The notes below the pieces were generated by a model that saw nothing but the letters and a program-made list of their open reading frames with translations, had not been told where the DNA came from and searched no databases. Position numbers and translations under genes: made by a program. From Eunapius fragilis (Eukaryota; Porifera; Demospongiae; Spongillida; Spongillidae), in contig OY811975.1 of the NCBI GenBank assembly GCA_963681505.1, positions 10,949,251 through 11,013,250 of the forward strand: DNA of 64,000 bases, written 5' to 3'. Below, piece after piece: positions 7,753-58,403 of this stretch. Within the stretch, counting starts at the first letter, position 1, and each line of letters starts with the position of its first letter.

Positions 7753-10700
7753 ATGATGATAATCGACCTGTTGATTGCCTTATCCCTTCTCGGGAGCTAT
7801 GTTAGGTCCGATCAGGTCAATACCACCGTTACCATTCCACCAGGCTCTGCTCTGCAGGACTACCTATGCAGCGGACCACTCCAGTCTAATATGACTGTTG
7901 TGTTGGAAGATGGAGAACATCGCATAGCTTCACAACCGATGTGCAATATTACCACTGAAGGCAACGTAACGATGACGGGGTCTCTCGACTCAACGAAAAG
8001 GACAGTTGTCCGTTGCGAATCGAAAACGAGCGCCGTATTTTCAGTACAAATGTTGACCATGGAGCGAATCACGTTCATCAACTGTGGTATACAACTTGTA
8101 TCAATCGAAAATACTTTAATCGTGAACTGCACATTTCAAGACAGTACAAGTGGAGCTATATCGTCAGACACAAATGTACTTATCGATATTCTTTATGGTG
8201 CTGTGATATTGTATAAATCAACAGGCGATGTTAGCATCACAGGGTGCACATTTCAGAACAACAATGCCGGTGGTTATGGTGGTGGTGTGATGTTGGATGG
8301 ATCCACAGGCTATGTTAGGATCACAGACTGCACATTTCAGAGCAACAGTGCTGCTAGTTATGGTGGTGCTGTGGCATTGGTTCGATCAAATAGTGATGTT
8401 AGTATCACAGACTGCACATTTCAGAACAACAGTGCTGGTCATGGTGGTGGTGGTGCTGTGAGATTGAGTAAATCAAAAGGTAATTTCAGTATCACAGGCT
8501 GCACATTTCAGAACAACCGTGCTAGTGATGATGGTGGTGCTGTGGCATTGTATGGATCTACAGGCTATGTTAGGATCACAGACTGCACATTTCAGAGCAA
8601 CAGTGCTAGTCATGGTGGTGGTGGTGCTGCTGTGAGATTGAGTAAATCAAAAGGTAATTTCAGTATCACAGGCTGCACATTTCAGAACAACCGTGCTAGT
8701 GATGATGGTAGTGCTGTGGCATTGTATGGATCTACAGGCTATGTTAGGATCACAGACTGCACATTTCAGAGCAACAGTGCTGCTAGTTATGGTGGTGCTG
8801 TGGCATTGGTTCAATCAAATGATGATGTTAGTATCACAGGGTGCACATTTCAGAACAATAGTGCTGGTAGTGAGGGTGGTGCTGTGATGTTGCATCAATC
8901 AACAGGCGATGTTAGTATCACAGGGTGCACATTTAAGAACAACAGTGCTTTTTATGGTGATGGTGGTGCTGTGAGTTACAATGAACAAACATTTGGAATT
9001 TCCGATGAATCAACAGGCGATGTTAGTATCAAAGACTGCATGTTTCAGAACAACAGTGCTAGTGGTGATGGTGGTGCTGTGGCATTGTATGGATCAACAG
9101 GCTATTTTACTATCACAGGCTGCACATTTCAGAACAATAGTGCTGGTGATGGTGGTGGTGGTGTGACACTCGAGAGATCGAGATTCGGTGGACCAAGAAG
9201 CAATGTTACAATAACTGACTGCACATTCCATATGAACAGAGGATATTTGGGAGGAGCCATTTACATCAGAAGTATTCTTTATGTTATGTTTAGCAATTTA
9301 TCAATCACTAACAACATGGCAAAAGTAGGTGCAGCAATATATGTGTATGGCCCTGGCCTTGGTTTATCAACATCAGATACAGTTATAAAACAACTCACCC
9401 TCCAGGATGTGGTTGTAAAAGATAACCATTGCTCTTCTGGTACATGTGCAGGAGCCATTTACTTTAAAGGAGTGAAGATGGACATCTTTGGCAGTACCAC
9501 CACTGGGAGTCATTTCTCATATAACTCTCCCCAAGGTGCAATACAAGGAGAAGGTGGTATCTTGACACTGCATGGTTACATCACATTTGACCATAACACA
9601 GGAGTTAATGGAGGGGCCATAAGTCTGTATAACAATGTTCCATTGTACTTCTATAGCAATTGTACAGTGCGCTTTTCCAACAATATAGCAACTGGATATG
9701 GTGGTGCTATATACAGTAATGGGAAACAGAATGAGTACATTAAGCAAAATTTACTGAATTGTATATTACGCATCTATATTACACTATCCAGTGCATTCCC
9801 CTTAATAACCTTCATTGATAACCATGCACTGCAAGGTGGTCATGCTGTTTATGCCACACCTATCTATGATTGTTTTTTTTCCTACCATGACACATTCCTT
9901 GACTTGGACATCATGATACTTATAAATAAACTTGACCTGACGAACGTTATCAATACCACTCCATTACATGAAGACATCAATGATACCCAAGTACTCTCCT
10001 TTCCAGACAATGTGGTCTATTGTGGCTGCAATAATCCTAATTTGTGTAATGGTACAAGTCCAAATCTTTCCACATATCCAGGTAGGACTGTAAAGCTTAA
10101 TATTACCTCAGTGGATAAAAGAAATAACCTATCTCCTGGTGTGGTTTACACACAGGTTGCGGATACAGTTGGTATTAATATTATGCTTGGACTTCGACAG
10201 AAGGCTCAGTGGATAGGAACAGTATGTGGTGAAATAGAGTACCAAATATATGGACCAGAAAATGCTTCACTCAAATTGCTTCTCTCCAATGATCCTAATG
10301 GTTCCCCAACAGTTATTAATGTGAAGCTGTTACCATGTGAACCAGGGTTTGTACTAATTACCAATGCTTCTACCAGCATGATGAAGTGTGACTGTTCTTT
10401 ATTCCTGACATCATTAGGAGTGATCTGTGATACATCAGATGGTACTGTGTCCAGAAATAAAACTAACTGGATTGGTGTGTACAATAACACTCTTCCAGGT
10501 CTGGCTCAAACCTGTCCATTGGACTACTGCAATAGTACCATCAAGAAGCTGTCTCTAGCAAGGCCTGGGTACCTGTGCAATGGAGGTCGCACAGGCACTA
10601 TTTGTGGTCGTTGCCATGGCAACCTCAGTGTGATCTTTGGTTCTTCCAAGTGCCAGGAGTGCTCAGATATGTGGTTGACCACACTTGTAATGTTTGCAGT

Positions 10701-11973
10701 GTTGGGTGTCTTCCTGGTAGCAGCACTGTTCTTCCTCAACCTCACCATCACACAGGGCACACTCTATGGGCTCATCTTCTATGCCAACATTATCCAAGTC
10801 AATACTTCTATATTCTTCAACCAGTCCATTTTAAATCCATTGCAGGTGATTGTGTCCTTGGTGAACCTTGACCTTGGGCTCCCTATGTGTTTTTACAATG
10901 GCATGGATGATGCTGACAAGGCTGGCCTTCAGTTTGTGTTCCCAGCCTACCTCCTCATCCTCACCATGGCAACCATTCTGGTCTGCCACTACTGTCTTCA
11001 AAGATCTCCCACTACCTCCACCAGATTCTTTCTTTATAGGCTTTCCACCATCATTGGAAAAAGAGCAGTTGGTGTTCTATCTACTCTCATCTACTTGTCA
11101 TATTCCAAATTATTGAGAACTGTCATTGATATCCTCACATATTCCACAGTTCACCTACCCAGTGGTGACATGTACGTCTGGTTCTATGATGGAAATGTGG
11201 AATACCTACATGGGAAGCATACTGCTTTGTTAGTGGTTGCTATGGCAACATTAACCCTGTTCCTCCTTCCATACACCATTGCCCTCACTTTCATTCCAAT
11301 CATTGAACAGTACAGTGAACACAACAGACTGTTCAACTATCTCCACAAGAAGGCCAACCAGATCAAACCAATGAATGATGCCCACTATGCGCCCTATAAG
11401 GGGGAGTGGCGATGGTGGCTGGGAGCAAGGCTTTGGCTTCTAGTTGTCATGTACAGTTTAAATCCAGTGTACAGTTCTGACAGGCCATCTCTGCTTCTCA
11501 CTATCCAAGGTACTATGGTGATCTTGTTCACTATAACACAGGCAAGTATAAAGCCATTTGGACAGTCACATCAAAAGACACATCAAAGCAACAGACGTAC
11601 TAACTTCTACAATCAGTTGTACAATAGCCTTGACATGTTTTACCTCCTCAACTACACTGCACTGGCTATGTCAATGTCTCACATTCTAGACCAGAGTTCA
11701 GACCAAACACAAAGTGCCATGGTAACTGTTGGTGTTTTGGTGGGTCTGTTTGTAGTGATGTTGATGGTCACTGTCTTGTACCATCTCACTGTGGCCATCC
11801 TCAAGACTTGCAAGATGTATGACAGAACCAGGGAGAAGTCCAATGGATTATTTGAAAAGAAACAATATGACCCAAATGTTCCTATAGAGCTGGATGATCC
11901 CACCAACAGTAATGTTGGTACCACAACTGTGACAGTCGACTGTGGTCTAAGAGAACCACTGAATGAAGATTAA
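7753..11973 (+). CDS. Gene A: secreted beta-helix repeat, multipass membrane protein
   Basis: An intronless frame of 1406 residues. Residues 1-19 are a hydrophobic signal peptide. About 20-150 is a conserved N-terminal cap. Around 155-495 lie about 12 beta-helix repeats (ITGCTFQNNSA, GGAV.LYGSTG), resembling the GGAI/FxxN repeats of bacterial polymorphic outer membrane proteins and other pectate-lyase-like helices. A less regular helix with GGAI motifs runs to ~660. A cysteine cluster (CDCS, CPLDYC, GGRTGTICGRC, KCQEC) lies at 879-970. About nine hydrophobic segments span 974-1345, then comes a cytosolic tail ending CGLREPLNED. The ATG used by genes B and C is mutated here (ATA), so the next in-frame ATG was chosen; the signal peptide is kept. 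Surface recognition or adhesion is a guess from layout, and no enzyme motif is seen. Confidence 0.85.
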   Translation: MMIIDLLIALSLLGSYVRSDQVNTTVTIPPGSALQDYLCSGPLQSNMTVVLEDGEHRIASQPMCNITTEGNVTMTGSLDSTKRTVVRCESKTSAVFSVQMLTMERITFINCGIQLVSIENTLIVNCTFQDSTSGAISSDTNVLIDILYGAVILYKSTGDVSITGCTFQNNNAGGYGGGVMLDGSTGYVRITDCTFQSNSAASYGGAVALVRSNSDVSITDCTFQNNSAGHGGGGAVRLSKSKGNFSITGCTFQNNRASDDGGAVALYGSTGYVRITDCTFQSNSASHGGGGAAVRLSKSKGNFSITGCTFQNNRASDDGSAVALYGSTGYVRITDCTFQSNSAASYGGAVALVQSNDDVSITGCTFQNNSAGSEGGAVMLHQSTGDVSITGCTFKNNSAFYGDGGAVSYNEQTFGISDESTGDVSIKDCMFQNNSASGDGGAVALYGSTGYFTITGCTFQNNSAGDGGGGVTLERSRFGGPRSNVTITDCTFHMNRGYLGGAIYIRSILYVMFSNLSITNNMAKVGAAIYVYGPGLGLSTSDTVIKQLTLQDVVVKDNHCSSGTCAGAIYFKGVKMDIFGSTTTGSHFSYNSPQGAIQGEGGILTLHGYITFDHNTGVNGGAISLYNNVPLYFYSNCTVRFSNNIATGYGGAIYSNGKQNEYIKQNLLNCILRIYITLSSAFPLITFIDNHALQGGHAVYATPIYDCFFSYHDTFLDLDIMILINKLDLTNVINTTPLHEDINDTQVLSFPDNVVYCGCNNPNLCNGTSPNLSTYPGRTVKLNITSVDKRNNLSPGVVYTQVADTVGINIMLGLRQKAQWIGTVCGEIEYQIYGPENASLKLLLSNDPNGSPTVINVKLLPCEPGFVLITNASTSMMKCDCSLFLTSLGVICDTSDGTVSRNKTNWIGVYNNTLPGLAQTCPLDYCNSTIKKLSLARPGYLCNGGRTGTICGRCHGNLSVIFGSSKCQECSDMWLTTLVMFAVLGVFLVAALFFLNLTITQGTLYGLIFYANIIQVNTSIFFNQSILNPLQVIVSLVNLDLGLPMCFYNGMDDADKAGLQFVFPAYLLILTMATILVCHYCLQRSPTTSTRFFLYRLSTIIGKRAVGVLSTLIYLSYSKLLRTVIDILTYSTVHLPSGDMYVWFYDGNVEYLHGKHTALLVVAMATLTLFLLPYTIALTFIPIIEQYSEHNRLFNYLHKKANQIKPMNDAHYAPYKGEWRWWLGARLWLLVVMYSLNPVYSSDRPSLLLTIQGTMVILFTITQASIKPFGQSHQKTHQSNRRTNFYNQLYNSLDMFYLLNYTALAMSMSHILDQSSDQTQSAMVTVGVLVGLFVVMLMVTVLYHLTVAILKTCKMYDRTREKSNGLFEKKQYDPNVPIELDDPTNSNVGTTTVTVDCGLREPLNED
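8215..9235 (+). repeat. In-frame beta-helix repeat array of gene A
   Basis: Units of 78-90 bp built on GTTAGTATCACAG, TGCACATTTCAGAACAACAGTGCT and GGTGGTGCTGTG (written here in parts). About 12 units, the last (ITDCTFHMNRGY) being the fixed end unit in all genes. Confidence 0.85.
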
Positions 11974-12114
11974 AGCATATGCCCATGTTGAGTTTACAGC
12001 CTTTTAGTACAAGGATAGTCTGCTGAAGTGCAAACATAGATTACATAGTCTGCTGAAGTAGTAGAAACATGCTAACATAGTAGTGATAATCAATGACATG
12101 TGTACATAGTTGAA
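11974..12114 (+). other. 3' flank of gene A
   Basis: Carries the family 3' motif (GTTTACAGCC, TAGTCTGCTGAAGT) with one short internal duplication of the TAGTCTGCTGAAGT part. No AATAAA signal was spotted. Confidence 0.6.
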
Positions 12115-13925
12115 TGGTATTAGCCACTGGCTTGTAATATTCTATTACAATGCAGATGTCACCATGGCAACATTATAAATTGGCACACCTGTCACCCATC
12201 AATGGAGGGAGCTTACAACTGTCCTTATAAACACCCCCTGTAGCAACTGTACCCTACCTTGGTCACACCCACTAATGTTCCTTCGCTTGTAAACTCCTTC
12301 CAAAACCACAACCAAGAATTAACCTATATTATTCGATTATGGCCTAAATTATGTAGAGGTCATTTGATCCTTAAATGTTTTGTGGCAGGAAGGGGTAATC
12401 TAAAGATACCCACTGAAGCCAAGTTCATGAAGGATTTCAAATTGGTATAATCTTTCTGTGGTTTGCTACCTTGGTAGCTGTAAATAACGAACTGATGGGA
12501 ATTTGCCTTAATCGGTTAATTGTATTATAATTTTATCTCTGTGGGTCATAAAAACTCTCAAACATTAAATTTAGTGATAAGGGTGCATTGAAAGTTTGAA
12601 TCAAATTATTCTATAGTCCATTATCAAGTATATATTTTATTATAAAAGCTATTGGAAGATATCGGTATGATTTCAGTATTCTCCTAATTTTTTTCTCTAC
12701 CCTAATTATAATGATTTTTAAATTGGTTATAACCATGTTTGGATCTTGAACATGTGGGTGTTGATTTCAAAATTATGTAAGTAATTTTAGAGCAACTCAA
12801 CGAAACAATTTTAAGCACGCTGTGCTTCAAACATTGCAACAGCATGGACTGTGACTGCAGGTGCTAAACGATAAATAGTTCAAAATAGAAGTCCATTAAC
12901 AGTTAACACTGTGTACCAACAATAATAGCTTGTAGGAAAGGACAATCAGTATGTCAGTGCCCAGTGTGTCAATAACGGGCTAATGTTTTGTGCTCTAGTG
13001 CATTATAAATGAAGCGGGCTGGATGTGCATTGCCTTATTACGTTTGCAGAAGGACGATATACTAATTAAGGCGACCATACACTAGGCAACATGTTGCGCG
13101 CAACACTATCAATTTTAGCAAACTAGCGTTTTACTGAATATATTATTGGATTCATTGAGTTGCATGCAACATTGCTGCCTACTGTATGGTCGCCTTGAGC
13201 CTTTCGTTGAGCTCAGACACATCATGTGTCCATTTATAGGTACTTACAAAAATCACATCCCTGAAATATATATAATAGCTTCCGTAGAAGCTGCGTCTGA
13301 GGGCTGTAGCTGTATCTTGCTATGGCTGTGTGGGGCTTCGCTGGGCGGGAGATTGCCTCGGACTCAATGAATTGATTACCGTATGGAAGTGTGGCGGTTT
13401 GATTGTGCTAGGCGCGCAAATTGTATCTATGTAGACTATTTCATTCTCTCATACCTGAGCACTTGTAACGCATGGTCTCTGTCTCGTGGGTCAAGGGCTG
13501 TGGGACTAAGGGCACTCACCTTTGTGTTTGTGTGTGAGTAGCTTTGATAAGGGCAGACCAATAAGCTGATAATGAACACCTTTTGTTTATTGATGCAGGT
13601 GACTGATGGTTAGACTTCAGGGAAGGGTCACCTGGGTGGGCCTTAGGGGAAATAGTCACCCAGACCTTAGGGAGAAATAGTCACCCAGACCTTCACTTTC
13701 CATTACAATTAGTCAGGGCGGACCCCTGTCCCTGCTGGCTTGTCCCTACAAAAAGCCCGGCTAGTCAAGCCTGGACCAGGTACCTGTATTAGCCGGAGGG
13801 CTTTCCCAAATTTACTGGCTGGAGGCAAGCCTGGACCAGTGTCCTGGCTTGTTACACAGGTCACCTGGTTTGTGGTCAGCGGCACTTGCTGGTGCCTCCA
13901 GAGCTAGGGGTTGGGAAATGTAACA
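12115..13925. repeat. T2 intergenic block, copy b
   Basis: The same order as copy a with scattered substitutions and indels. The 25-bp tandem repeat near 13643-13692 has only two units. No conserved coding sequence. Confidence 0.8.
13068..13196. mobile_element. Foldback MITE in T2 block, copy b
   Basis: A 129-bp copy of the element at 2628 with the same ends and the same flanks, so carried along by block duplication rather than inserted anew. Confidence 0.8.
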
Positions 13926-14734: not shown

Positions 14735-15021
14735 GTATGTGGGAGTATATAAGAGTATACAGGAGTGTACAAGAATGTACAGGAGTGTAAAAAAAAGTGT
14801 ACAATAGTGGGACAGGGGTATTTTAGTAGTGTGGTGTGAACAGGTGTGTACAGGAGTGTGGTATGTACCAACAGGTGTGTACAACAGCAGTGTGGTGTGG
14901 GTTTACAGCAGTAGGTGTAGTCACACTCATGTTTTATGGAAGGCATGTGACCTTTTCCTTTTTGTCCCTTCCTGGAAAAAGGCATGTGTGTAATAGTAGT
15001 CATAACCCTGAGGCAATGGTA

Positions 15022-15925
15022 CAGTTGGTGTTCTATCTACTCTCATCTACTTGTCATATTCCAAATTGTTGAGAACTGTCATTGATATTTTCACATTTTC
15101 CACAGTTCACCTACCCAGTGGTGACATGTATGTCTGGTTCTATGATGGAAATATGGAATACCTACATGGGAAGCATACTGCTTTGTTTGTGGTTGCTATG
15201 ACAACATGTTCCCTGTTCCTCCTTCCATACACCTTTGCCCTCACTTTCATTCCAATCATTGAACAGTACAGTGAACACAACAGACTGTTCAACTATCTCC
15301 ACAAGAAGGCCAACCAGATCAAACCAATGAATGATGCCCACTATGCTCCCTATAAGGGGGAGTGGCGATGGTGGCTGGGAGCAAGGCTTTGGCTTCTTAT
15401 TGTCATGTACAGTTTAAATCCAGTGTACAGTTCTGACAGGCTATCTCTGCTTCTCATTATCCAAGCTACTATGGTGATCTTGTTCACTATAACACAGGCA
15501 AGTATAAAGCCATTTGGACAGTCACATCAAAAGACACATCAAAGCAACAGATGTTCCAACTTCTACCATCAGTTGTACAATAGCCTTGACATGTTTTACC
15601 TCCTCAACTATACTGCACTGGCTATGTCAATGTCTTACATTCTAGACCAGAGTTCAGACCAAACGCAAAGTGCCATGGTAACTGTGGGTGTTTTGGTGGG
15701 TCTGTTTGTAGTGATGTTGATGGTCACTGTCTTGTACCATCTCACTATGGCCATCCTCAAGACTTGCGAGATGTATGACAGAACCAGAGAGAATTTCGAT
15801 GCATTATAAGAAACTATATGACCCAATGGTTCCTACAGAGCTGGATGATCCCACCAACAGTGCTGTTGGTACCACAACTGTGTCAGTCTCCTGTGGTCTA
15901 AGAGAACCACTGAGTGAAGATTAAA
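15022..15925 (+). pseudogene. Detached membrane module, frameshifted near its end
   Basis: It starts at the shared ACAGTTGGTGTTC junction without signal peptide, helix or cysteine cluster. The frame follows the family until 15808, where loss of about eight bases (TTGAAAAG in the paralogs) creates TAA. The old tail, ending in the LREPLSED type, is still readable in another frame to 15924. A protein of ~250 residues from an internal start is conceivable, but nothing suggests a promoter. Confidence 0.85.
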
Positions 15926-17929: not shown

Positions 17930-18222
17930 TGAGTAACATGGGCTCATATGGTGTAGTCATATGAGTCACCATATCCCTGCTGATCTACTATTTCGCTACC
18001 TCCATCTCCTTTGATGCCTTCACATTGTCACAGCACACACAACACCTCCTCCCCTTCCTTTCTCTCCTCCTCTCCCCCTCCCTCCTTCCTCTCCCTTCCC
18101 TCCATCTTACCCATTCCTCTGGTGCCCTCACAATGTCTTCACACACACAGCACCTCCATTGTCGTACACTACCACCTCTTCCCTTTCCCATGTGACCCTG
18201 TTGACTCCACCCCTTCAAGCAG

Positions 18223-18328
18223 GAAGCAGTTGATCAGAGACAACTACTCGTGTTCCCACTGTGCCCTTGTGGGTACCAACTGGCGGAGCATCTTGGACCT
18301 TGGAGACCAAAAGACATTGCACCAGAAG
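18223..18328 (+). other. Exon-like segment X5, copy b
   Basis: 106 bases between TTCAAGCAG and AAGGTGAGC, encoding RKQLIRDNYSCSHCALVGTN then WRSILDLGDQKTLHQK. It ends in phase 0, matching the start of Y1. Two CxxC-like cysteines may be structural. Not recognised. Confidence 0.5.
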
Positions 18329-18951
18329 GTGAGCATACGAGCATACATGGGGAAGAGAAGGGGTGTGGTTATTGGAACGTTTGTATGGGAAATGATAAGG
18401 ATGAATCAAGGAGGAGAGGAGGGAGAGGGGGAGGGAGAGGCACTGGAGGTAGGGAGAGGGTAAAGGAACATGAAATGCATGTTATAAATAAAAAGTGAAA
18501 CAGTCGTTGGACCTCAGATCACCAAGGGCATGAGCATATGATAGTAAAGCTCTGGCATTAGCTCTAATTAGAGTTACATGCCCGTAGCCAGGGGGGTTTC
18601 GGGGGGTTCGATCGAACCCCCCCTCAGAAGGTCAAGGTCCACTTATGTGGAGGTATGGTCTCTCCGAGGCGATTAGAGGCCTTCTGACCAGTATAATAAT
18701 TATACATGTATCCCAGTGTTGCAGCTGAAGCCTTTAAGTTAAATCGAAAACGGTTAACCAACCCGCGCCAGGGCCGGCCCGTCTATACTAGCACAGTAGA
18801 AATGTTTAATTTTAGTTGTCCTCTGATCGTGTTGGAGTGGAAGCACAGATCCAACAAGCTGCTCCTCTTGCCACTTACGTCCATTGTAGTGGACACTGTT
18901 TGAACATTGTCAATCAGCAAGTCTTGCTCCCTGCCTGACATCCACAATGTA

Positions 18952-19829: not shown

Positions 19830-20704
19830 GATATTCCAAATTGTTGAGAACTGTCATTGATATCCTCACATATTCCACAGTTCACCTACCCAGTGGTGAC
19901 ATGTATGTCTGGTTCTATGATGGAAATGTGGAATACCTACATGGGAAGCATACTGCTTTGTTTGTGGTTGCTATGGCAACATGTACCCTGTTCCTCCTTC
20001 CATACACCATTGTCCTCACTTTCATTCCAATCATTGAACAGTACAGTGAACACAACAGACTGTTCAACTATCTCCACAAGAAGGCCAACCAGATCAAACC
20101 AATGAATGATGCCCACTATGCTCCCTATAAGGGAGAGTGGCGATGGTGGCTGGGAGCAAGGCTTTGGCTTCTTATTGTCATGTACAGTTTAAATCCAGTG
20201 TATAGTTCTGACAGGCCATCTCTGCTTCTCACTATCCAGGTTACTATGGTGATCTTGTTCACTATAACACAGGCAAGTATAAAGCCATTTGGACAGTCAC
20301 ATCAAAAGACACATCAAAGCAACAGATGTACCAACTTCTACAATCAGTTGTACAATAGCCTTGACATGTTTTACCTCCTCAACTACACTGCACTGGCTAT
20401 GTCAATGTCTTACATTCTAGACCAGAGTTCAGACCAAACACGAAGTGCCATGGTAACTGTTGGTGTTTTGGTGGGTCTGTTTGTAGTGATGTTGATGGTC
20501 ACTGTCTTGTACCATCTCATTGTGGCCATCCTCAAGACTTGCAAGATGTATGACAGAACCAGGGAGAAGTTCAATGCATTATTTGAAAAGAGGCAATATG
20601 ACCCAAAGGTTCCTATAGAGCTGGATGATCCCACCAACTGTACTGTTGATACCACAACTGTGTCAGTCTCCTGTGGACTAAGAGAACCACTGAGTGAAGA
20701 TTAA
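19830..20704 (+). pseudogene. Detached membrane module with open frame
   Basis: It joins foldback sequence at ATATTCCAAATTG and then follows the family without a stop to TAA at 20702-20704 (~287 residues, tail LREPLSED). It carries the VDTTTVSV tail variant shared with gene B. Without signal peptide or promoter, this is most likely a fragment, although the intact frame means either recent origin or some constraint. Confidence 0.75.
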
Positions 20705-23968: not shown

Positions 23969-24206
23969 TACAGTTGGTGTTCTATCTACTTGTCATATTC
24001 CAAATTGTTGAGAACTGTCATTGATATCCTCACATATTCCACATTTCACCTGCCCAGTGGTGACATGTATGTCTGGTTCTATGATGGAAATGTGGAATAC
24101 CTACATGGGAAGCATACTGCTTTGTTTGTGATTGCTATAGCAACATTAACCCTGTTCCTCCTTCCATACACCTTTGCCCTCACTTTCTTTCCAATCATTG
24201 AACAGT
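23969..24206 (+). pseudogene. Membrane-module fragment truncated after ~80 residues
   Basis: It has the same ACAGTTGGTG start, a 10-base deletion at CTCTCATCTA and a jump at ...FPIIEQ into T1 sequence (TTTAATTATACCAC). Most of the membrane half and its 3' flank are gone. Confidence 0.85.
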
Positions 24207-24579
24207 TTAATTATACCACACTACCTTGATCATTCATGTATCAATGTAGCATAGAAACCAGTCATTATAAGGAAATATCTATGGCATGACCACCCAAGAT
24301 AGTCATATGTGGTGTGGTACATTAATGGATGCTGAGCTATGAGAGGCTCCCTTCACAACTTTTCTCTCCTCCCTCCCTCCCCTCTACACTCACCCATGTT
24401 CCTTTTGGAAAGAATTGTGTCAATTGTATTAATATTGCCCATAGTATAGAAATTCTCACTCTCATTCACTTACTCCTCTTTACTTCCCTCTATCTTCCCC
24501 TATCTCTCTACTCCTCCCCTCTCCTCCCTCTCTATCTCCTCTCTCCTTCTTCCTGCCCCTCCCCCCGCTTGCTCTGTAG

Positions 24580-27559: not shown

Positions 27560-27751
27560 ATGCCTTTTCCTATTGTCCCTAACACTTTCATCCTCACTCT
27601 GAGTGGTGTGCCGGAAGTCCTGGCAGACTTCAGCAGTGCTAAAAACATTGCCAAAGGTGTTCTCTCTCAGGAGCAAGGAGATGTCAAGCTACACCTGATA
27701 GCTTATGATAGTCGTAGCCTGTCAATCCAGGAGAAGAAATATGGTATACAA
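27560..27751 (+). mobile_element. Ty3/gypsy RNase H relic fused to a beta-helix fragment
   Basis: Frame with LSQEQGDVKLHLIAYDSRSL at 27655-27720, better preserved than the other relics. At AAATATGGTATA the sequence passes into the beta-helix family (CAACTTGTATC) in the same reading frame. The shared TGGTATA of both partners marks the join. Confidence 0.7.
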
Positions 27752-28519
27752 CTTGTATCAATCGAAAGTACTTTAATCGTGAACTGCACATTTCAGGATA
27801 GTACAAGTGGAGCTATATCGTCAGACACAACTGGACTTATCGATACTCTTATTGGTGCTGTGATGTTGTATGGATCAACAGGCGATGTTAGTATCACAGG
27901 GTGCACATTTCAGAACAACATTGCTGGTGATTGTGGTGATGGTTATTGTGGTTGTGGTGCTGTGGTGTTGTATGGATCAACAGGCGATGTTAGTATCACA
28001 GGGTGCACATTTCAGAACAACAGTGCTTTTTATGGTGGTGCTGTGATGTTGTATGGATCAACAGGTAATGTTAGCATAACAGACTGTACATTTCAGAACA
28101 GTGCTGGTTATGATGATGGTGGTGGTGCTGTGAGTTTGCCCAGCAAAAAGTTCTTGGGCAAGGTTGTTGCCAAGAAGAGCAAGATCTTGGCAGGAGGCCA
28201 AGATCTTGCCAGGAGGCTGAGATCTTGCCATATCTTGGGTAAGATCTTGGCCAGAACTTGGCCGGCCATAATCTTGGCACCTTGGGCAAGATCTTGGGCA
28301 AGTCTTGGGCAAGTTGGGCAAGATCTTGGGCAAGTTGGTCAAGATCTTGGGCAGGAATCTTGTCCAAGAACTTTTTGCTGGGTGGGTACATCAAAAGGTA
28401 ATGTAGTATCACAGGGTGCACATTTTAGGGCAACAGTGCTGGCTATGCTGGTGGTGCTATGAAGTTGGATGGATCAACAAGCAATGTTAGTATCACAGGC
28501 TGCACATTTCAGAATAACA
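27748..28519 (+). pseudogene. Beta-helix gene fragment, interrupted by a MITE
   Basis: Corresponds to about residues 117 onward of gene A (IQLVSIESTLIVNCTFQDST), then four ITGCTFQNN repeats to 28138, a 244-bp insertion, and two more repeats with a frameshift (28391-28519) ending at CAGAATAACACC, where homology stops. Signal peptide, cysteine cluster and membrane half are absent. Confidence 0.85.
28139..28382. mobile_element. 244-bp MITE inside the beta-helix fragment
   Basis: Terminal inverted repeats of 24 bp with a single mismatch (28139-28162 and 28359-28382, outermost CCCAGCAAAAAG). The interior is built from CAAGATCTTG palindromes and CTTGGGCAAG units. Comparison with uninterrupted paralogs (GAGTTTGGGTA) shows that only TG is duplicated at the site. 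Confidence 0.9.
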
Positions 28520-34778: not shown

Positions 34779-36950
34779 TTAGGAGGGTAAGAGCTCTCTT
34801 GCCAGGATGGCTCTGGCAATGGACCGGATCAGGGCAGTATTCAATCGCTCATAGATCTCAGTCACCACTGATGACTTGGGGGAAGACTGATGAATGGCCA
34901 GGTGAGATGCCAGCCTTGAAATGGTAACACGGGCCTCTTTGCCCCAATTTTCATACGTCTCGACTGCCAATGGAGTGCAGGACCAACCTAACTCCTGGCA
35001 TTTGGGTCCATTGGAGTGTAGCTTACAGGCCTCTGCTGCAAGGGCTGCAGTCTCAGCATGGTTGACATGACTCACCTAAGATGGCTGGGCAGAGGGGTGA
35101 TAAGATGGTGATGTCCAGTGCAGCACGTTTGCCTCTGTCCCATCCAGCAACAAGAAGGTTCATGGGCGAATGCAGGGTTTTGGGGCGGGGGGTGAAGTGA
35201 TTTTGAAGGGACACACCTCACCAGCATTCGCACTTTTTAAGTCAAAAAATTCTGCATAATTGCGCAGCATAATGCATGCTAAATTATAGTAAATACGACT
35301 GAAATTAAAGTATATCTATAGCATAAGAAGTTAATAACATAGGTTTTGCGGGGTGGGGGGTATACCCTACTCACCCCCCCCCCCCCCCCCTTAAATCCAC
35401 CACTGATGTCAGCTGGTCTGGTATGATCAAGGTCTCTAGTGGGGCCATGGCCTCTCTCTACACTAACGCTCAGGTGGGCACGACGACAGAGCTCAATGAT
35501 CTCATCCCACAAGCAATTGTGGTGTATAACAACATCTCCCCCATGCCTGCAGGTCATAGCATGATGACCAAGAGGATCAAGGGTAGTATCGGGGGGAGAA
35601 TGGACACATGGAACGACCTGAAGTGTCCAGTCCCAGCCACCATTTTATGACCATCCAGTACTCATTGGCAAGCCTAAACTAGTAGAATAGTGCAATTAGT
35701 CTCCTATTGGTGCAACCAAGGATATTCTAGTTGGGCAGGAATGAGCACCTTACATCTGGTGGGAACGAGGTGTTGCCCTTCCTACTAAATAACTCACACT
35801 TGGCCAGGTTCACATGGAGGCCCAGTGCCGTGGGCCCAACTCCTCAATCAGGTGCAAAGCATTCATCTTCAGCTTCCAAGCTTGCTACCAGCTTATGGAG
35901 CACTAATGCAAACAGCAAAAAACCCAGCGGGTCACCTTGCTGCACTCCAGATTCAGAACTGATTCTGACCAAAGTGGGTGCCATAACATGGGGTGGGACC
36001 CACAGCACCAAGATACCCATGGCATAAGCTCTGGAAAAATGTAGCACATTCATCCAATACTGCCTGTCTGGAGACAATGTTGAAAGCATTTCACATATCA
36101 ACTTTGAAGAAAACAAAATCTTCATCCATCCAGTGCCCTTCAATGCATCTCCTGACACCATGTGCAATCTTCTCTGCACCTGACCAACATGCAACACCCA
36201 GTTGCAAGAACTGGAAAAAGTCAGCTACCTTGTCTTTTAACAAGGCGCACGCCTGCAAATCTCCCCCCACAGCTATTGGTCTAATATCAGGTGGGGCAAC
36301 CCTCCTTGATTTTATTGAGGGCAATAAGATTGGCCCCAGCCAAGAAACGTGACACAGAGGTAAGGGCTTTTCCTGCTAAAGGATGTTAATTCCTTACCTA
36401 AGAGAGGAGGAGATGGGAGTGGGAAGAGGAGTGCTGACTACATCAAGGAGGTGTTGCACTCTGAGTTCTGAGGGACCAGCCGCAGTGTCCTTGGAGGAGG
36501 GATGCATGATGTTGAAGTCAGGCTCCAAAGAAACAGGTGCTGTGTGGGCAACAGGAGTTACTGGTGTGGGACAGCTGGGATGCTTGGCTTTCAACAGCTG
36601 TCGTGTTTGATCGTTGTTTGGCGCTAGATTGCAAGATGCGGCAAGCTTTCCCCACATGCCACATCTGCCAGATGACACAGCTGGGTCAATTGCTTTAGTG
36701 CGCTGGTTGATAGATGTACTGCAAGCACTCCTTACCCAGCTTCTGGCCAAATCAAAAGAGGTCTCCCATTTTATTATCTGACAACACGTTGCAAAGAATA
36801 TCAACTGGAAGAGGCTTGTCGTGGTGTCCCTTATGTTGGAGGGATGGAAGGACACACTTTGGGAGCATAAACAACTTCAAGCCATGCCTCCTCTGTGTTC
36901 TCTAAGATGACACACCCTAAGGCTGATGACAAGTCTCACGCAAAGGCAGG
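34779..36950 (-). mobile_element. Degenerate RT element (family 2), minus strand
   Basis: From right to left: LKAKHPSCP and GPSELRVQHLLD (36500-36850), IRPIAVGGDLQA (36280), WMDEDFVFFKVDM (36100), GVQQGDPLG (35930), a gap, then the endonuclease part CRHGGDVVIHHN and HTRPAD (35400-35557), RAALDITILSPL (35110) and VETYENWG to the end (34779-34980). Frames shift several times, and the YxDD region falls in or near the gap. The same layout occurs almost intact at 61674-64000. The endonuclease domain is split by an insertion. Confidence 0.8.
35165..35410. mobile_element. Insertion splitting the endonuclease domain
   Basis: About 240 bp between the two halves of the minus-strand domain. Read on the minus strand it opens CAGTGGTGGATTTAAG with a G homopolymer (35377-35391) and closes in GGGGCGGGGGGTGAAG-type sequence near the left end. 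Inverted terminal homology is weak, so boundaries are approximate. Confidence 0.5.
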
Positions 36951-37284: not shown

Positions 37285-37861
37285 CATAAGACTTCATAAA
37301 TAGGCACACCCATCACCCATCAAAGGAGGGAGCTTACAGCTGTCCTTATGCACACAACTGCAGCAACTGCACCCTAACCTTGGCCACACCCACTAATGTT
37401 CCTTCGCTTGTAAACTCCTTCCTACACCACTACCAAGTATTAACTGATAAAGGCCTAAATTATGTAGAGGTTATTTGATCCTTAAATGTTTTGTGGCAGG
37501 AAGGGGTAATCTAAAGATAACCGCTGAAGCCGTGATTTCAAATTAGTATAATCTTTCTGTGGTTTGCTTCCTTGGTAGCTGTAAACAACTAATTGATACG
37601 AATTTGCCTTAATCGGTTAATTAAATTATAATTATATCTCTGTGGGTTATAAAAACTCACAAACATTAAATTTAGTGATATGGGTGCATTGAAAGTGTAA
37701 CGCTATTATTTGTTTAGTACATTTGTTGTAGTCAGTTGCTGTAAATATTTGTGATCCTGAAAATGAAAGTTGGGTGTAATTAAATACCTGATCATGAAGA
37801 TACGCTGATATAAATATTTTTATTAAACAGCAACAGCTTCAGAGGTGTGGGGATTGTGTGT
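37285..37861. repeat. Joined T2 start and T1 start
   Basis: The first ~390 bp are the left part of T2 (CACCCATCAAAGG...TTAGTGATATGGGTGCATTGAAAG), joined to the T1 beginning (TGTAACGCTATTATTTG). The same join is present at 39565-40130 and 49160-49790, so those copies share an origin. Confidence 0.75.
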
Positions 37862-38950
37862 GCATTCATCTTCAGCTTCCAAGCTTGCTCCCAGCTTATG
37901 GAGCACTAATGCAAACAGCAAAGAACCCAGCGGGTCACCTTGCTGCACTCCAGATTCAGAACTGATTCTGACCAAAGTGGGTGCCATAACATGGGGTGGG
38001 ACCCACAGCACCAAGATACCCATGGTATAAGCTCTGGAAAAATGTAGCACATTCATCCAATACTGCCTGTCTGGAGACAATGTTGAAAGCATTTCACATA
38101 TCAACTTTGAAGAAAACAAAATCTTCATCCATCCAGTGCTTTCAATGCATCTCCTGACACCATGTGCAATCTTCTCTGCACCTGACCAACATGCAACACC
38201 CAGTTGCAAGAACTGGAAAAAGTCAGCTACCTTGTCTTTTAACAAGGCGCACGCCTGCAAGTCTCCCCCCGCAGCTATTGGTCTAATATCAGGTGGGGCA
38301 ACCCTCCTTGATTTTATTGAGGGCAATAAGATTGGCCCCAGCCAAGAAACGTGACACAGAGGTAAGGGCTTTTCCTGCTAAAGGATGTTAATTCCTTACC
38401 TAAGAGAGGAGGAGATGGGAGTGGGAAGAGGAGTGCTGACTACATCAAGGAGGTGTTGCACTCTGAGTTCTGAGGGACCAGCCGCAGTGTCCTTGGAGGA
38501 GGAACGCATGATGTTGAAGTCAGGCTCCAAAGAAACAGGTGCTGTGTGGGCAACAGGAGTTACTGGTGTGGGACAGCTGGGATGCTTGGCTTTCAACAGC
38601 TGTCGTGTTTGATCGTTGTTTGGCGCTAGATTGCAAGATGCGGCAAGCTTTCCCCACATGCCACATCTGCCAGGTGACACAGCTTGGTCAATTGCTTTAG
38701 TGCGCTGGTTGATAGATGTACTGCAAGCACTCCTTACCCAGCTTCTGGCCAAATCAAAAGAGGTCTCCCATTTTATTATCTGACAACACGTTGCAAAGAA
38801 TATCAACTGGAAGAGGCTTGTCGTGGCATCCCTTATGTTGGAGGGATGGAAGGACACACTTTGGGAGCATAAACAACTTCAAGCCATGCCTCCTCTGTGT
38901 TCTCTAAGATGACACACCCTAAGGCTGATGACAAGTCTCACGCAAAGGCA
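37862..38950 (-). mobile_element. RT element fragment (family 2), duplicated copy
   Basis: Copy of 35859-36950 on the minus strand, carrying the N-terminal region (LKAKHPSCP, GPSELRVQHLLD) and the palm start (GVQQGDPLGSLLFALVLHKL). It ends in minisatellite-like sequence at 37861 and lacks zinc-finger and endonuclease parts. Confidence 0.8.
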
Positions 38951-42199: not shown

Positions 42200-42477
42200 G
42201 AGTAACATGGGCTTATATGGTGTAGTCATATGAGTCACCATATCCCTGCTGACCTACTAGTTCTCTTTTCGCTACCTCCATCTCCTCTGATGCCTCCTTA
42301 ATGTCATGACACACACAACACCTCCTCCCACTCCCTCCTCTCCCTCTCTTACATCTTCCCCATTCCTCTGGTGCCCTCACAATGTCTTCACACACACAAC
42401 ACCTCCATTGTCGTACACTACCCCCTCTTACATGTAGCTTCTCCATGTGACCCTGTTGACTCCACCCCTTCAAGCAG

Positions 42478-42583
42478 GAAGCAGTTGATCAGAGACAACT
42501 ACTCGTGTTCCCACTGTGCCCTTGTGGGTACCAACTGGTGGAGCATCATGGACCTTGGAGACCACAAGACATTGCACCAGAAG
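42478..42583 (+). pseudogene. Exon-like segment X5, copy e, donor lost
   Basis: Coding part is open, but AAGGTGAGC is changed to AAGGGGAGC, removing the GT donor. The same change is in copy f. Confidence 0.5.
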
Positions 42584-42840
42584 GGGAGCATACGAGCATA
42601 CCTGGGGAAGAGAAGGGGTGTGGTTATTGGAACGTTTGTATGGGAAATGATAAGGATGTATCAGGGAAGGCGAGGAGGAGGGAGAGGGGGAGGGAGAGGC
42701 ACGGGGGGTAGGGAGAGGGTAAAGGAACATGAAATGCATGTTATAAACAAAAAATGCAACAGTCGTTGGACCTCAGATCACCAAGGGCATGAACATGATA
42801 GTAAAGCTCTGGCATTAGCTCTAATTAGAGTTAGGTTATT

Positions 42841-43690
42841 CTAAGTCTCTGGTAGCTTCAGTGTGCTGCATTGGTGATTTGTTTGGTTTGGTTTGATTTG
42901 GTGGTGTTCGCAAAAAAAAGGGTGTGGTTATACACTCGGTGATCAAAATCAGTGTGGTACCTAAGTGGGTGAAAATTGAACCTCTAAACATGACCTCATT
43001 GACAATATCACAGGTAAAGGAATAAAGATAAGAACTACTGCGTGGACATGATTTACCATCACTATGTTCGCTATACGTGTACATTGCAATGCACTTCCTC
43101 GGTGCTGTGCAGACTTCAGCAGTGTTAGAAACATACGCCAATACCAAAGATGTTCTCTCTCAGGAGCAATGAGATGTCAAGCTGCACCTGATAGCTTATG
43201 ATAGTCGTAGTCTGTCAATCCAGGAGAAGAAATATGGTATAACAGACATGGAGACGCTGGCAGTAGTAGTCACTTCCACTACTACATAACGTGAAAGTGT
43301 ACACCGACCATCCAGTGCTGAAAGCAATCCTGCAGACATCAAGTGCAAATGGTAAACATGCGAGGTAGTGGTCAACGGTATTTAGCCTAGGGATCAGCTT
43401 TGTATACCAGCCTGGCCAGGATAACTCAGCAGCAGAATGCTGCAGGTGCTGGTGTTGCATTGGTGCAGGTAGACAACAATAGTACAGGTGGCTTTTCATG
43501 GAGGATCTGGTCAGAAGTGGTCAATTCATTGTAGAGCAGGAGACCCAGAACTTGTTGCACTCATATGGTGTATGGAAACGAGAGAGTTGACGAAAGCAGA
43601 ATGGTTGCTTGCAGAATGGTTGTGCTGGAGCTGTTCATTAGTGTGGAGAGTGGTGCACTGGGTAGGCTTCAAATAAAGTAAACAAGTTGT
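42841..43690 (+). mobile_element. Ty3/gypsy relic, copy 3, upstream of gene B
   Basis: Same relic as at 6141: RNase H motifs (DHPVLKAILQTSSANGKHA near 43305-43360 in broken frames) and the linker (GDPELVALIWCMETRELTK near 43545). A repeated GAATGGTTG in the linker and loss of a base at ATAACGTG break the frame. Confidence 0.65.
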
Positions 43691-53724: not shown

Positions 53725-53834
53725 CCTCTCGGTTCAATGAACTACGTCATAGATTTCAGATCGTGGGTTACAGGTCTAAGTCACTCAGCAGTTATTATTA
53801 GAACACTCAAGAACTGAAGTATGATCCTGAATTC

Positions 53835-56800
53835 ATGGCGATGATGATAATCGACCTGTTGATTGCCTTATCCCTTCTCGGGAGCCATGTAACTAGGTCC
53901 GATCAGGTCAATACCACCGTTACCATTCCACCAGGCTCTGCTCTGCAGGACTACCTATGCAGCGGACCACTCCAGTCTAATATGACTGTTGTGTTGGAAG
54001 ATGGAGAACATCGCATAGCTTCACAACCGACGTGCAATATTACCACTGAAGGCAGCGTAACGATGACGGGGTCTCTCGACTCAACGAAAAGAACAGTTGT
54101 CCGTTGCGAATCGAAAACGAGCACCGTATTTTCAGTACAAATGTTGACCATGAAACGAATCACGTTCATTAACTGTGGTATACAACTTTTATCAATCGAA
54201 AGTACTTTAATCGTGAACTGCACATTTCAGGACAGTACAAGTCGAGCTATATCGTCAGACACAACTGGATTTATCGATACTCTTATTGGTGCTGTGATGT
54301 TGTATGGATCAACAGGTAAGCTTAGCATCACAGGGTGCACATTTCAGAACAGTGCTGGTCATCGTGGTGGTGCTGTGAGTTTGAGTATATCAGAAGGTAA
54401 TGTTAGTATCACAGGCTGCACATTTCAGAACAACAGTGCTAGAGGTGGTTATGGTGGTGGTGCTGTGAGTTTGGATGGATCAACAGTCGATGTTAGTATC
54501 ACAGGCTGCACATTTCAGAACAATAGTGCTAGTGATGGTTATGGTGGTGCTGTGAGTTTGGGTCCATCAAAAGGTAATGTTAGTATCACAGGCTGCACAT
54601 TTCAGAGCAACAGTGCTGGTGATGGTTATGGTGGTGGTGCTGTGAGTTTGGATGGATCAACAGTCGATGTTAGTATCACAGACTGCACATTTCAGAACAA
54701 TAGTGCTAGTGATGGTTATGGTGGTGCTGTGAGTTTAGGTCCATCAAAAGGTAATGTTAGTATCACAGACTGCACATTTCAGAACAACAGTGCTAATGGT
54801 AATGGTGGTGCTGTGGTGTTATATGGATCAACAGGTGATGTTAGTATCACAGGGTGCACATTTCAGAACAACAGCGCTGGTTATGGTGGTGGTGGTGCTG
54901 TGAGGTTGAGTTTATCAAAAGGTAATGTTAGTATCACAGGCTGCACATTTCAGAACAACTGTGCTAGTGATGATGATGGTGGTGCTGTGGTGTTGTATGG
55001 ATCAGCAGGCGATGTTAGTATCACAGGGTGCATATTTCAGAGCAACAGTGCTAGTGGTTTGGGTGGTGGTGGTAGTGCTGTGGTGTTGTATAGATCAACA
55101 GGCGATGTTAGTATCACAGGCTGCACATTTCAGAACAACCGTGCTGGTGATTGTGGTGATGGTTATTGTGGTGGTGGTGCTGTGACGTTGGATGGATCAA
55201 CAGGTAATGTTAGTATCACAGACTGCACATTTCGGAGCAACATTGCTAGTGATGGTTATGGTGGTGCTGTGACGTTGGGTGACTCAGTAGGCGATGTTAG
55301 TATCACAGGCTGCACATTTCAGAACAACAGTGCTAGTAATTTGAGTGGTGCTGTAGTGTTGTATGGATCAACAGGCGATTTTCGTATCACAGGGTGCACA
55401 TTTCAGAACTGCAGTACTAATGGTGGTGGTGGTGCTGTGATGTTGTATAGATCAACAGGCGATGTTAGTATCACAGGGTGCACATTTCAGAACAATCGTG
55501 CTGGTGATTGTGGTGATGGTTATTGTGGTGGTGGTGCTGTGACGTTGGGTGGATCAACAGGTAATGTTTGCATCACAGACTGCACATTTCAGAACAACAG
55601 TGCTGGTGATGGTGGTGCTGTGAGGTTGGATGGACGAATAGCCAATGTTACAATAACTGACTGCACATTCCATATGAACAGAGGATATTTGGGAGGAGCC
55701 ATATACATTAAAAGTACTCTTTATATTATGTTTAGCAATTTATCAATTACTAACAACAGTGCAGAAGCAGGTGCAGCAATATTTGCTTATGGCCCCGCCC
55801 TTGATTTCATAACATCAGATACAGAGATAAAACAACTCACCCTCCAGGATGTGGTTGTAAAAGATAACCACTGCCCTTCTGGTACATGTACAGGAGCCAT
55901 TTACTTTAAAGGAGTGAAGATGGACATCTTTGGCAGTCCCACCACAGGGAGCCATTTCTCATATAACTCTCCCCAAGGTGCAATACAAGGAGAAGGTGGT
56001 ATCTTGACATTGCATGGATACATCACATTTGACCATAACACAGGAGTAAATGGAGGGGCCATAAGTCTGTCCAACAATGTTCCATTGTACTTCAATTTCA
56101 ATTGTATAGTGCGCTTTTCCAACAATATAGCAACTGGATATGGTGGTGCTATATACAGTAATGGGAAACAGAATGAGTTCAGTAATCGGAATTTACTGAA
56201 TTGTATTTTACGCATCTATATTGAGCTTTCACATTCTACAAAGAGCGAACCCTTAATAACCTTCATTGATAACCATGCATTACAAGGTGGTCATGCTGTC
56301 TATGCCACACCTATCTATGAATGTAATATTTTATTATTTGAACCTTTCCCACATTTACTCCTTGACGTGATGGGATATTTCAATATTACTCCATTATCAG
56401 GATACATCAATGATACCCAAGTACTCTCCTTTCCAGAAAAGGTGAACTATTGTGGCTGCAGTGATCCTAATTTGTGCAATGATACAAGTCCACATCTTAC
56501 CACATATCCTGGTAGGACTGTAAAACTTAATATTACCTCGGTGGATAAAAGAAATAACCTATCTCCTGGTGTGATTTACACTCAGATTACGGATACAGTT
56601 GGTATTAATATAATGCTTGGACTTCGACAGAAGGCTCAGTGGATAGGAACGGTATGTGGTCAAATAGAGTACCAAATATATGGACCAGAAAATTCATCAC
56701 TCAAATTGCTTCTCTCCAATGATCCTAATGGTTCCCCAACAGTTATTAATGTGAAGCTGTTACCATGTGAACCAGGGTTTGTATTAATTACCAACTCTTC

Positions 56801-58403
56801 TACCAGCATGATGAAGTGTGACTGTTCTCCATTCCTGACATCATTAGGAGTGATCTGTGATACATCAGATGGTACTGTGACAAGAAATAAAACTAACTGG
56901 ATTGGAGTGTACAATAACACTCTTCCAGCTCTGGCTCAAACCTGTCCTTTGGACTACTGCAATAGTACCATCAAGAAGCTGTCGTTAGCAAGGCCTGGGT
57001 ACCTGTGCAATGGAGGGCGCACTGGCATTATTTGTGGTCATTGCCGTGGCAACTTCAGTGTGATCTTTGGTTCTTCCAAGTGCCAGGGGTGCTCAGATAT
57101 GTGGCTGACCACACTTGTAATGTTTGCAGTGTTGGGTGTCTTCCTGGTAGCAGCACTGTTCTTCCTCAACCTCACCATCACACAGGGCACACTCTATGGG
57201 CTCATCTTCTATGCCAACATTATCCAAATCAATACTTCTATATTCTTCAACCAGTCCATTTTAAATCCATTGCAGGTGATTGTGTCCTTGGTGAACCTAG
57301 ACCTTGGGTTCCCAATGTGTTTTTACAATGGCATGGATGATGCTGACAAGGCTGGCCTTCAGTTTGTGTTCCCAGCTTACCTCCTCATCCTCACCATGGC
57401 AACCATTCTGGTCTGCCACTACTGTCTTCAAAGATCTCCCACTACCTCCACCAGCTTCTTTTTAAATAGGTTTTCCACCATCATTGGAGAAAGAGCAGTT
57501 GGTGTTCTATCTACTCTCATCTACTTGTCATATTCCAAATTGTTGAGAACTGTCATTGATATCCTCACATATTCCACAGTTCACCTACCCAGTGGTGACA
57601 TTTATGTCTGGTTCTATGATGGAAATGTGGAATACCTATACGGGAAGCATACTGCTTTGTTTGTGGTTGCTATGGCAACATTAACCCTATTCCTCCTTCC
57701 ATACACCATTGCCCTGACTTTCATTCCAATCATTGAACAGCACAGTGAACACAACAGACTGTTCAACTATCTCCACAAGAAGGCCAACCAGATCAAACCA
57801 ATGAATGATGCCCACTATGCTCCCTATAAGGGAGAGTGGCGATGGTGGCTGGGAGCAAGGCTTTGGCTTCTAGTTGTCATGTACAGTTTAAATCCAGTGT
57901 ACAGTTCTGACAGCCCATCTCTGCTTCTCACTATCCAGGCTACTATGGTGATCTTGTTCACTATAACACAGGCACGTATAGTGCCATTTGGACAGTCACA
58001 TCAAAAGACACATAAAAGCAACAGACGTATCAACTTCTACAATCAGTTGTACAATAGCCTTGACATGTTTTACCTCCTCAACTACACTGCACTGGTTATG
58101 TCAATGTCTCACATTCTAGACCAGAGTTCAGACCAAACAAAAAGTGCCATGGTAACTGTTGGAGTTTTGGTGGGTCTGTTTGTAGTGATGTTGATGGTCA
58201 CTGTCTTGTACCATCTCACTGTGGCCATCCTCAAGACTTGCAAGATGTATGACAGAACCAGGGAGAAGTTCAGTGGATTATTTGAAAAGAAACAATATGA
58301 CCCAAATGTTCCTATAGAGCTGGTTGATCCCACCAACAGTACTGTTGGTACCACAACTGTGACAGTCTCCTGTGGTCTAAGAGAACCACTGAATGAAGAT
58401 TAA
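53835..58403 (+). CDS. Gene C: secreted beta-helix repeat, multipass membrane protein
   Basis: Intronless frame of 1522 residues starting at ATTCATGG with a signal peptide (MIIDLLIALSLLGSH). N-terminal cap, then about 16 beta-helix repeats (~160-615), two of which carry an unusual GDCGDGYCGGGAV insert with two extra cysteines (repeats 10 and 14). Irregular helix, cysteine cluster (CDCSPFL, CPLDYC, GGRTGIICGHC, KCQGC), about nine hydrophobic segments from ~1090, and a tail ending CGLREPLNED as in gene A and the 5' partial copy. The N-terminal cap is nearly identical to gene B, while the tail is closer to gene A: a hint of gene conversion. Function unknown; surface location inferred. Confidence 0.88.
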   Translation: MAMMIIDLLIALSLLGSHVTRSDQVNTTVTIPPGSALQDYLCSGPLQSNMTVVLEDGEHRIASQPTCNITTEGSVTMTGSLDSTKRTVVRCESKTSTVFSVQMLTMKRITFINCGIQLLSIESTLIVNCTFQDSTSRAISSDTTGFIDTLIGAVMLYGSTGKLSITGCTFQNSAGHRGGAVSLSISEGNVSITGCTFQNNSARGGYGGGAVSLDGSTVDVSITGCTFQNNSASDGYGGAVSLGPSKGNVSITGCTFQSNSAGDGYGGGAVSLDGSTVDVSITDCTFQNNSASDGYGGAVSLGPSKGNVSITDCTFQNNSANGNGGAVVLYGSTGDVSITGCTFQNNSAGYGGGGAVRLSLSKGNVSITGCTFQNNCASDDDGGAVVLYGSAGDVSITGCIFQSNSASGLGGGGSAVVLYRSTGDVSITGCTFQNNRAGDCGDGYCGGGAVTLDGSTGNVSITDCTFRSNIASDGYGGAVTLGDSVGDVSITGCTFQNNSASNLSGAVVLYGSTGDFRITGCTFQNCSTNGGGGAVMLYRSTGDVSITGCTFQNNRAGDCGDGYCGGGAVTLGGSTGNVCITDCTFQNNSAGDGGAVRLDGRIANVTITDCTFHMNRGYLGGAIYIKSTLYIMFSNLSITNNSAEAGAAIFAYGPALDFITSDTEIKQLTLQDVVVKDNHCPSGTCTGAIYFKGVKMDIFGSPTTGSHFSYNSPQGAIQGEGGILTLHGYITFDHNTGVNGGAISLSNNVPLYFNFNCIVRFSNNIATGYGGAIYSNGKQNEFSNRNLLNCILRIYIELSHSTKSEPLITFIDNHALQGGHAVYATPIYECNILLFEPFPHLLLDVMGYFNITPLSGYINDTQVLSFPEKVNYCGCSDPNLCNDTSPHLTTYPGRTVKLNITSVDKRNNLSPGVIYTQITDTVGINIMLGLRQKAQWIGTVCGQIEYQIYGPENSSLKLLLSNDPNGSPTVINVKLLPCEPGFVLITNSSTSMMKCDCSPFLTSLGVICDTSDGTVTRNKTNWIGVYNNTLPALAQTCPLDYCNSTIKKLSLARPGYLCNGGRTGIICGHCRGNFSVIFGSSKCQGCSDMWLTTLVMFAVLGVFLVAALFFLNLTITQGTLYGLIFYANIIQINTSIFFNQSILNPLQVIVSLVNLDLGFPMCFYNGMDDADKAGLQFVFPAYLLILTMATILVCHYCLQRSPTTSTSFFLNRFSTIIGERAVGVLSTLIYLSYSKLLRTVIDILTYSTVHLPSGDIYVWFYDGNVEYLYGKHTALFVVAMATLTLFLLPYTIALTFIPIIEQHSEHNRLFNYLHKKANQIKPMNDAHYAPYKGEWRWWLGARLWLLVVMYSLNPVYSSDSPSLLLTIQATMVILFTITQARIVPFGQSHQKTHKSNRRINFYNQLYNSLDMFYLLNYTALVMSMSHILDQSSDQTKSAMVTVGVLVGLFVVMLMVTVLYHLTVAILKTCKMYDRTREKFSGLFEKKQYDPNVPIELVDPTNSTVGTTTVTVSCGLREPLNED
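54312..55680 (+). repeat. In-frame beta-helix repeat array of gene C
   Basis: About 16 units. Units 2-3 and 4-5 form a duplicated pair (SLDGSTVDVS / SLGPSKGNVS), and units 10 and 14 are near copies. Confidence 0.85.

Follow-up and report, generated by a model that had tools for sequence, protein, structure and literature searches.

The window analysed here, a 64,000-nucleotide stretch of chromosome 5 of the sponge Eunapius fragilis (positions 10949251-11013250), carries three intact members of a gene family that joins a rod of beta-helix coils, of the type found in chlamydial Pmp proteins, to a multi-pass membrane body. We found relatives of these genes across most of the genome, and the positions of the coils predicted to face outwards change fast, as opposed to the core positions. 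On sequence grounds, we put at about even the chance that the genes encode cell-surface adhesion or recognition proteins. By analogy with chlamydial Pmps and the Pmp-like proteins of trichomonads, this would be the best-supported reading. The genome searched comprised 218,937,333 bases in 24 contigs; the published assembly, odEunFrag1, is described as 23 chromosomes and a mitochondrial sequence, 218.91 Mb in all (PMC12616128).

A Pmp-type rod on a multi-pass body

The sequence-only reading of this DNA had proposed three full paralogs, and each proved to be a single frame without internal stop, matched by both Beta_helix (E 4e-31 to 5e-39) and Chlam_PMP (PF02415; E 3e-23 to 1e-33) in Pfam. POMP-repeat matches lay alongside those to PF02415, and nothing else in the three proteins scored above cut-off outside the helix matches. 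All three share one layout, in which a hydrophobic leader is followed by 12-18 coils of the Chlamydia Pmp type, by a stalk with a cysteine cluster after it, and then by about nine membrane segments and a tail; the proposed cysteine cluster and nine or so segments were recovered in every paralog (hydropathy by eye). The genes, and the parts of gene 1, are as follows (aa, amino acids).

7753..11973 (+): full gene 1, 1406 aa
44393..49057 (+): full gene 2, 1554 aa
53835..58403 (+): full gene 3, 1522 aa
7753..7812 (+): gene 1, probable signal-peptide-like N-terminus, judged by eye from the sequence rather than by a predictor
8179..9321 (+): gene 1, coil array, with 12 strict coils mostly 28-30 aa apart, limits approximate
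9322..10566 (+): gene 1, stalk, comprising the end of the beta-helix and the juxtamembrane region
10567..10665 (+): gene 1, cysteine cluster preceding the membrane part, resembling DUF7630 (PF24633) in relatives
10666..11817 (+): gene 1, membrane body of about nine segments
11818..11970 (+): gene 1, tail, predicted to be cytosolic, with a C-terminal LREPL motif

The motif GGA[ILV] was present in 115 of 147 coils taken from 13 loci (L005 and L006, which look alike, were both included). FxxN was present in 140 of the 147, a count that is not independent, since the pattern used to find coils required F and a nearby N. A PF02415 match together with GGA[ILV] in repeated coils identifies the rod as a Pmp-repeat beta-helix. 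Coil content was read in 20 genes. Five chromosome-5 genes and L058 on chromosome 6 held 10-24 strict coils each and 13 others held 0-8, while L056 on chromosome 1 had 3 strict matches and a coil consensus of its own, which suggests within-gene homogenisation. It should be borne in mind that AlphaFold2 (AF2) is prone to drawing beta-solenoids from repeat sequences, as described in PMC11795689.

Exposed and core positions of the coils evolve differently

In order to compare the two faces of the coil, we used the strict pattern, which yielded 100 coils from 10 genes with 26 positions each, 13 called exposed and 10 core. The ratio of nonsynonymous to synonymous change (omega) was 2.33 at the exposed positions (gene bootstrap 1.94-2.79) and 0.20 at the core positions (0.10-0.44). 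It was still 2.2 for coil pairs differing at no more than 8 bases, and 1.19 for all 26 positions together. In 120 simulations in which every position was neutral and the exposed set was fixed, omega reached at most 1.47. In further simulations, with 60 sequences rather than 100, in which the core was purified and the rest neutral, the value of 1.19 for all 26 positions was reached in none of the 120 runs, and that of 2.33, taken for the 13 most variable positions, in one. Together these results support, with moderate evidence that falls short of proof, a diversifying exposed face.

We then followed selection along the whole protein in 24 chromosome-5 genes, namely those of loci L009-L038 whose frames reach 930 aa or more, minus three copies of the window genes, plus the three window genes themselves, using Nei-Gojobori counts. 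The last coils had an omega of 0.70 and the outer stalk values of 0.81 and 0.68; close to the membrane it was 0.33, and the cysteine cluster gave 0.26. The membrane part gave 0.23 and 0.38, one inside loop 0.97 and the tail 1.08. The mean amino acid distance was 0.25 for the outer helix and 0.053 for the membrane part. The contrast of a variable outside with a constant inside, as first proposed, is thus borne out by these distances and by the exposed coil positions, where omega exceeds 1, but does not extend to the tail, which had been described as fixed: its proportion of nonsynonymous differences (pN) was 0.066, as against 0.015-0.025 in the membrane part, and its one widely shared element is an LREPL-like motif. 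The variation shown is variation between paralogs, the sole level compared.

The outer regions exceeded the membrane part in synonymous divergence too (0.13-0.23 against 0.06), suggesting that insides have been homogenised, that outsides are older, or both. Among inner coils, 61.2 of 119 had their best match in their own gene, compared with 12.3 expected, and mean coil identity was 0.55 within genes, slightly above the 0.51 between genes. Distances for the outer helix and the membrane part were correlated across the 24 genes (Mantel r 0.30, p 0.019), and the two parts had the same nearest relative in 8 of them. Such a loose link between outside and inside agrees with exchange of parts among paralogs. 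We propose that diversity would arise from tandem gene duplication with gain and loss of coils, and that exchange among paralogs would hold the insides alike and let the outsides diverge; the data bear this out in part.

Several observations weigh against the reading as adhesion or recognition proteins. A number of core positions were set by the search pattern itself, and the exposed set was chosen after coil variability was known. In the core-purified simulations the 16 non-core positions reached 2.37 once, and in the all-neutral simulations the observed values were reached in 11 of 120 runs for all 26 positions and in 3 of 120 for the 13 most variable. Coils found by a looser pattern numbered 163 and had an omega of 1.12, with a bootstrap range (0.9998-1.23) that touches 1; values for single genes spanned 0.81-1.42, and 4 of the 10 genes stayed below 1. 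Gene conversion among paralogs breaks simple models of omega, the outer stalk lies under 1, and a structure model of the membrane part had to be discarded (mean predicted local distance difference test score, pLDDT, 34.8; predicted template modelling score, pTM, 0.25). In addition, tagged trichomonad Pmp-like proteins were located inside the cell, according to PMC6701047.

The stalk value, and a neutral null that the all-neutral simulations do not strongly exclude, would suit a structural or anti-fouling coat, in which coil variation reflects replication slippage, relaxed constraint and concerted evolution and has no role in recognition. Coils are indeed duplicated in tandem within genes, and fragments and broken copies are common. 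On the other hand, relaxed constraint alone is not expected to produce pN above the synonymous proportion (pS), and the opposite behaviour of core and exposed positions and the purifying selection on the membrane body also speak against a coat. Moreover, four related groups whose coils are fewer or less regular had helix omega values of 0.33, 0.41, 0.61 and 0.69, the highest coming from two very similar sequences; three of the groups have 1-2 strict coils per gene and the remaining one, L039/L040, has 6 and 8. We therefore regard such a coat as somewhat unlikely.

The membrane body matches no channel or transporter family in Pfam

The averaged hydropathy profile, read by eye, displayed nine long segments and one short one, and the short segment may be re-entrant. 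With loops placed by hand, lysine and arginine numbered 14-22 per 129-157 residues in the inside loops and 3-7 per 81 residues in the outside loops, in 16 of 16 members. A cytosolic tail fits this arrangement, because the inside loops are the richer in these residues. LREPL was found in 44 of 52 tails and YxxPhi in 30 of 52, and NPxY in none of the 52. The cysteine cluster resembles DUF7630, a domain of unknown function of 45 positions whose name did not turn up in the open-licence literature searched. At E<=1 it matched 11 of 21 members, the window genes not among them. Across the genome 11 of 69 places exceeded the curated cut-off of 27 bits, one of them in an aligned member (L045, C18:1418796, 28.2 bits), whereas six members scanned singly reached 24.6 bits at best, under that cut-off.

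The recognition role had originally been staked in part on the membrane part matching no channel or transporter of known function. No such match turned up: in a scan of 21 members Pfam listed nine families at E<=1, none of them a channel or transporter. Membership of the voltage/TRP cation channels (PF00520) was rejected, as none of the 21 places at which Ion_trans matched the genome overlapped the listed family places when compared by eye. TRP-like membership (PF06011) was rejected as well, its single genome-wide match falling in a distant relative and not in the window family. Among solved structures, there was no match for gene 1 at E<=1, and the alignment profile gave nothing better than E 0.87. 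The structure prediction that the sequence-only reading had called for was run on the membrane part and gave no usable model; its low confidence can be explained by the input, which consisted of six window sequences only, 91-97% identical to gene 1. Pfam has no description of this multi-pass body, so that solving its structure would add knowledge irrespective of what the protein does.

An ectodomain, a cysteine cluster and about nine segments make up a layout that resembles that of protist and fungal TRP-like proteins. The body could accordingly be a TRP-like channel or sensor, with the beta-helix as an extracellular lever or ligand sensor whose variation tunes gating instead of recognising self or microbes. 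The PF06011 match (C5:2272645-2272974; E 3.1, non-significant) lies within a frame of 620 aa that is clearly related to L064 (E 9e-81), which hhalign in turn ties to the window family (97.4%, with reversed and shuffled controls at 3.7% and 0.1%). However, one match at this E value is no evidence alone, and the scans of family proteins without a channel family, the absence of Ion_trans overlaps and the lack of a solved-structure match all speak against a channel or sensor, the foremost rival reading, which we consider unlikely.

The family is spread over most chromosomes

The claim of an expanded family was correct and understated its extent, which is well past what chance would yield. The membrane part of gene 1 matched at least 111 stretches across the genome (E<=0.001), a lower bound since 109 of 250 candidates were scored, and one in which a few genes yield two rows. 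Of the 111 stretches listed, 62 belong to frames of 1000 aa or longer that carry no stop within the match; 50 fall between 10.7 and 11.42 Mb on chromosome 5, 22 of these in frames of that length. When 54 membrane parts (49 different) were placed in a tree, those from chromosome 5 formed one supported group (98/93) with L056 on chromosome 1 and L058 on chromosome 6. More distant kin were also detected. In a HMMER search of four sequences, L062 on chromosome 22 was tied to the family (E 1e-54) and L063, L064 and L065 had no match; the latter three were tied to it by hhalign (93.3%, 97.4% and 95.6%), with reversed or shuffled controls at 0.1-3.7%. Searching with L062 returned 99 stretches, 52 of them new relative to the gene 1 list (51 among 77 rows compared, 45 with frames of at least 1000 aa, plus one by eye), and L064 returned 67 matches, some within the L062 group. 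In two distant members, on C8 (1148 aa) and C6 (1094 aa), a beta-helix stood in the same frame as the membrane part. Profile scans with the membrane alignment against viral contigs and genome contigs gave 11 and 46 pattern stretches, none of which was confirmed.

In all, relatives occur on 19 of 23 chromosomes, a spread that argues against a by-product of tandem amplification in which many copies are functionless pseudogenes or assembly duplicates. For such a by-product one may point to the 49 of 111 listed stretches that have no stop-free frame of 1000 aa, and to the recurrence of truncated fragments. Yet stop-free frames of 1400-1860 aa and low omega in the membrane part require selection, and most copies are not assembly duplicates, because synonymous sites have diverged between them (regional pS 0.06-0.23). 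We hold this explanation to be highly improbable.

Further arrays of beta-helix frames, many of 2200-2540 aa, were noticed on C12 (about 7.03-7.47 Mb) and C3 (about 2.47-2.75 Mb), and seem to represent a second expanded beta-helix family.

Other features of the window

Besides the three intact genes, a fourth reaches into the window with its 3' end, and five fragments are present. At least six fragments had been expected, and tblastn did find six pieces, but the first of these is part of the adjacent fourth gene.

3..905 (+): 3' portion of the adjacent family member, with an open frame of 1054 aa that starts left of the window
5063..5329 (+): membrane-part fragment, sharing its left junction with the fragment at 15012
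15012..15921 (+): membrane-part fragment in two pieces, frame break near 15808
19832..20701 (+): membrane-part and tail fragment, open frame, without the N-terminal half
23984..24211 (+): short membrane-part fragment
27743..28138 (+): fragment of the N-terminus and coils, within a frame of 300 aa (tblastn piece 27743-27898)

The fragments at 5063 and 15012 have an identical left junction and also share the DNA preceding it, so that a single truncation must have been copied by duplication. A truncation starting near membrane residues 127-133 recurs in 11 of the 111 genome stretches listed. Long mutual matches link the units at 39.6-49.1 kb and 49.2-58.5 kb.

A few neighbouring elements were seen in addition. 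The coil fragment at 27560-28462 (+) is in frame with a piece that weakly matches a retroelement RNase H, and a reverse transcriptase domain lies in a 641-aa frame at 61674-63599 (-). Short frames at 36397-36876 and 37826-38377 (-) look element-like by eye, and a similar short frame occurs in the two copies of a duplicated stretch (17984-18463 and 42302-42844, +); all of these are without a Pfam match.

Comparison with known systems and possible function

The coil type and large variable receptor families are both already known. Chlamydial Pmps (PF02415) carry the same coil, with GGA[ILV] and FxxN in a right-handed beta-helix (PMC11166332), and are variable surface proteins with adhesive roles; a similar role in the sponge would follow by analogy. 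They are bacterial autotransporters, built from a middle domain and a barrel in the outer membrane besides the coils, whereas the sponge proteins are multi-pass, and Pfam listed neither the PMP middle domain nor the autotransporter barrel at E<=1 in the three window proteins. The trichomonad Pmp-like family is, like the sponge family, a eukaryotic expansion of Pmp-repeat proteins, with 48 genes in T. vaginalis, and the account in PMC6701047 reports that expressing members raised adhesion. Those proteins have a single C-terminal membrane span and endocytic tail motifs, in contrast to the roughly nine spans of the sponge proteins and their tails with LREPL and without NPxY. The expanded SRCR and NLR immune receptors of sponges, as far as they are described, are likewise large lineage-specific families of putative recognition proteins; their domains are unrelated, and no SRCR, Ig or NACHT was listed by Pfam in the three window proteins. 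In the open-licence literature searched we found no earlier report of Pmp coils joined to this multi-pass body, of their expansion on this scale in a sponge, or of the contrast between exposed and core positions; the main text of the E. muelleri genome paper does not contain 'beta helix', 'polymorphic' or 'Pmp'.

Taken together, we favour adhesion or recognition at the cell surface. A rod of Pmp-type coils, whose number and exposed residues change fast, sits on a stalk and cysteine cluster, followed by a conserved body of about nine passes. The rod would project from sponge cells and bind a variable partner, which may be other cells, bacteria, algae or matrix. Anchoring the rod would fall to the conserved body, which could also pass on a signal or couple the rod to uptake through the tail. 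A stronger version, which we offer tentatively and think rather unlikely as a whole, is that some 60 intact close Pmp-coil receptors and dozens of distant kin might serve self/non-self or microbe discrimination through a hitherto undescribed nine-pass signalling body, with coil shuffling between tandem genes as the generator of diversity.

Sponges discriminate self and microbes, and to our knowledge the genes that underlie this ability are not settled. Here, a coil best known in bacterial adhesins is joined to a multi-pass body, in a family that is large, arranged in tandem, variable on its exposed face and constant in its membrane part. It may therefore provide a concrete, testable candidate for discrimination in sponges.

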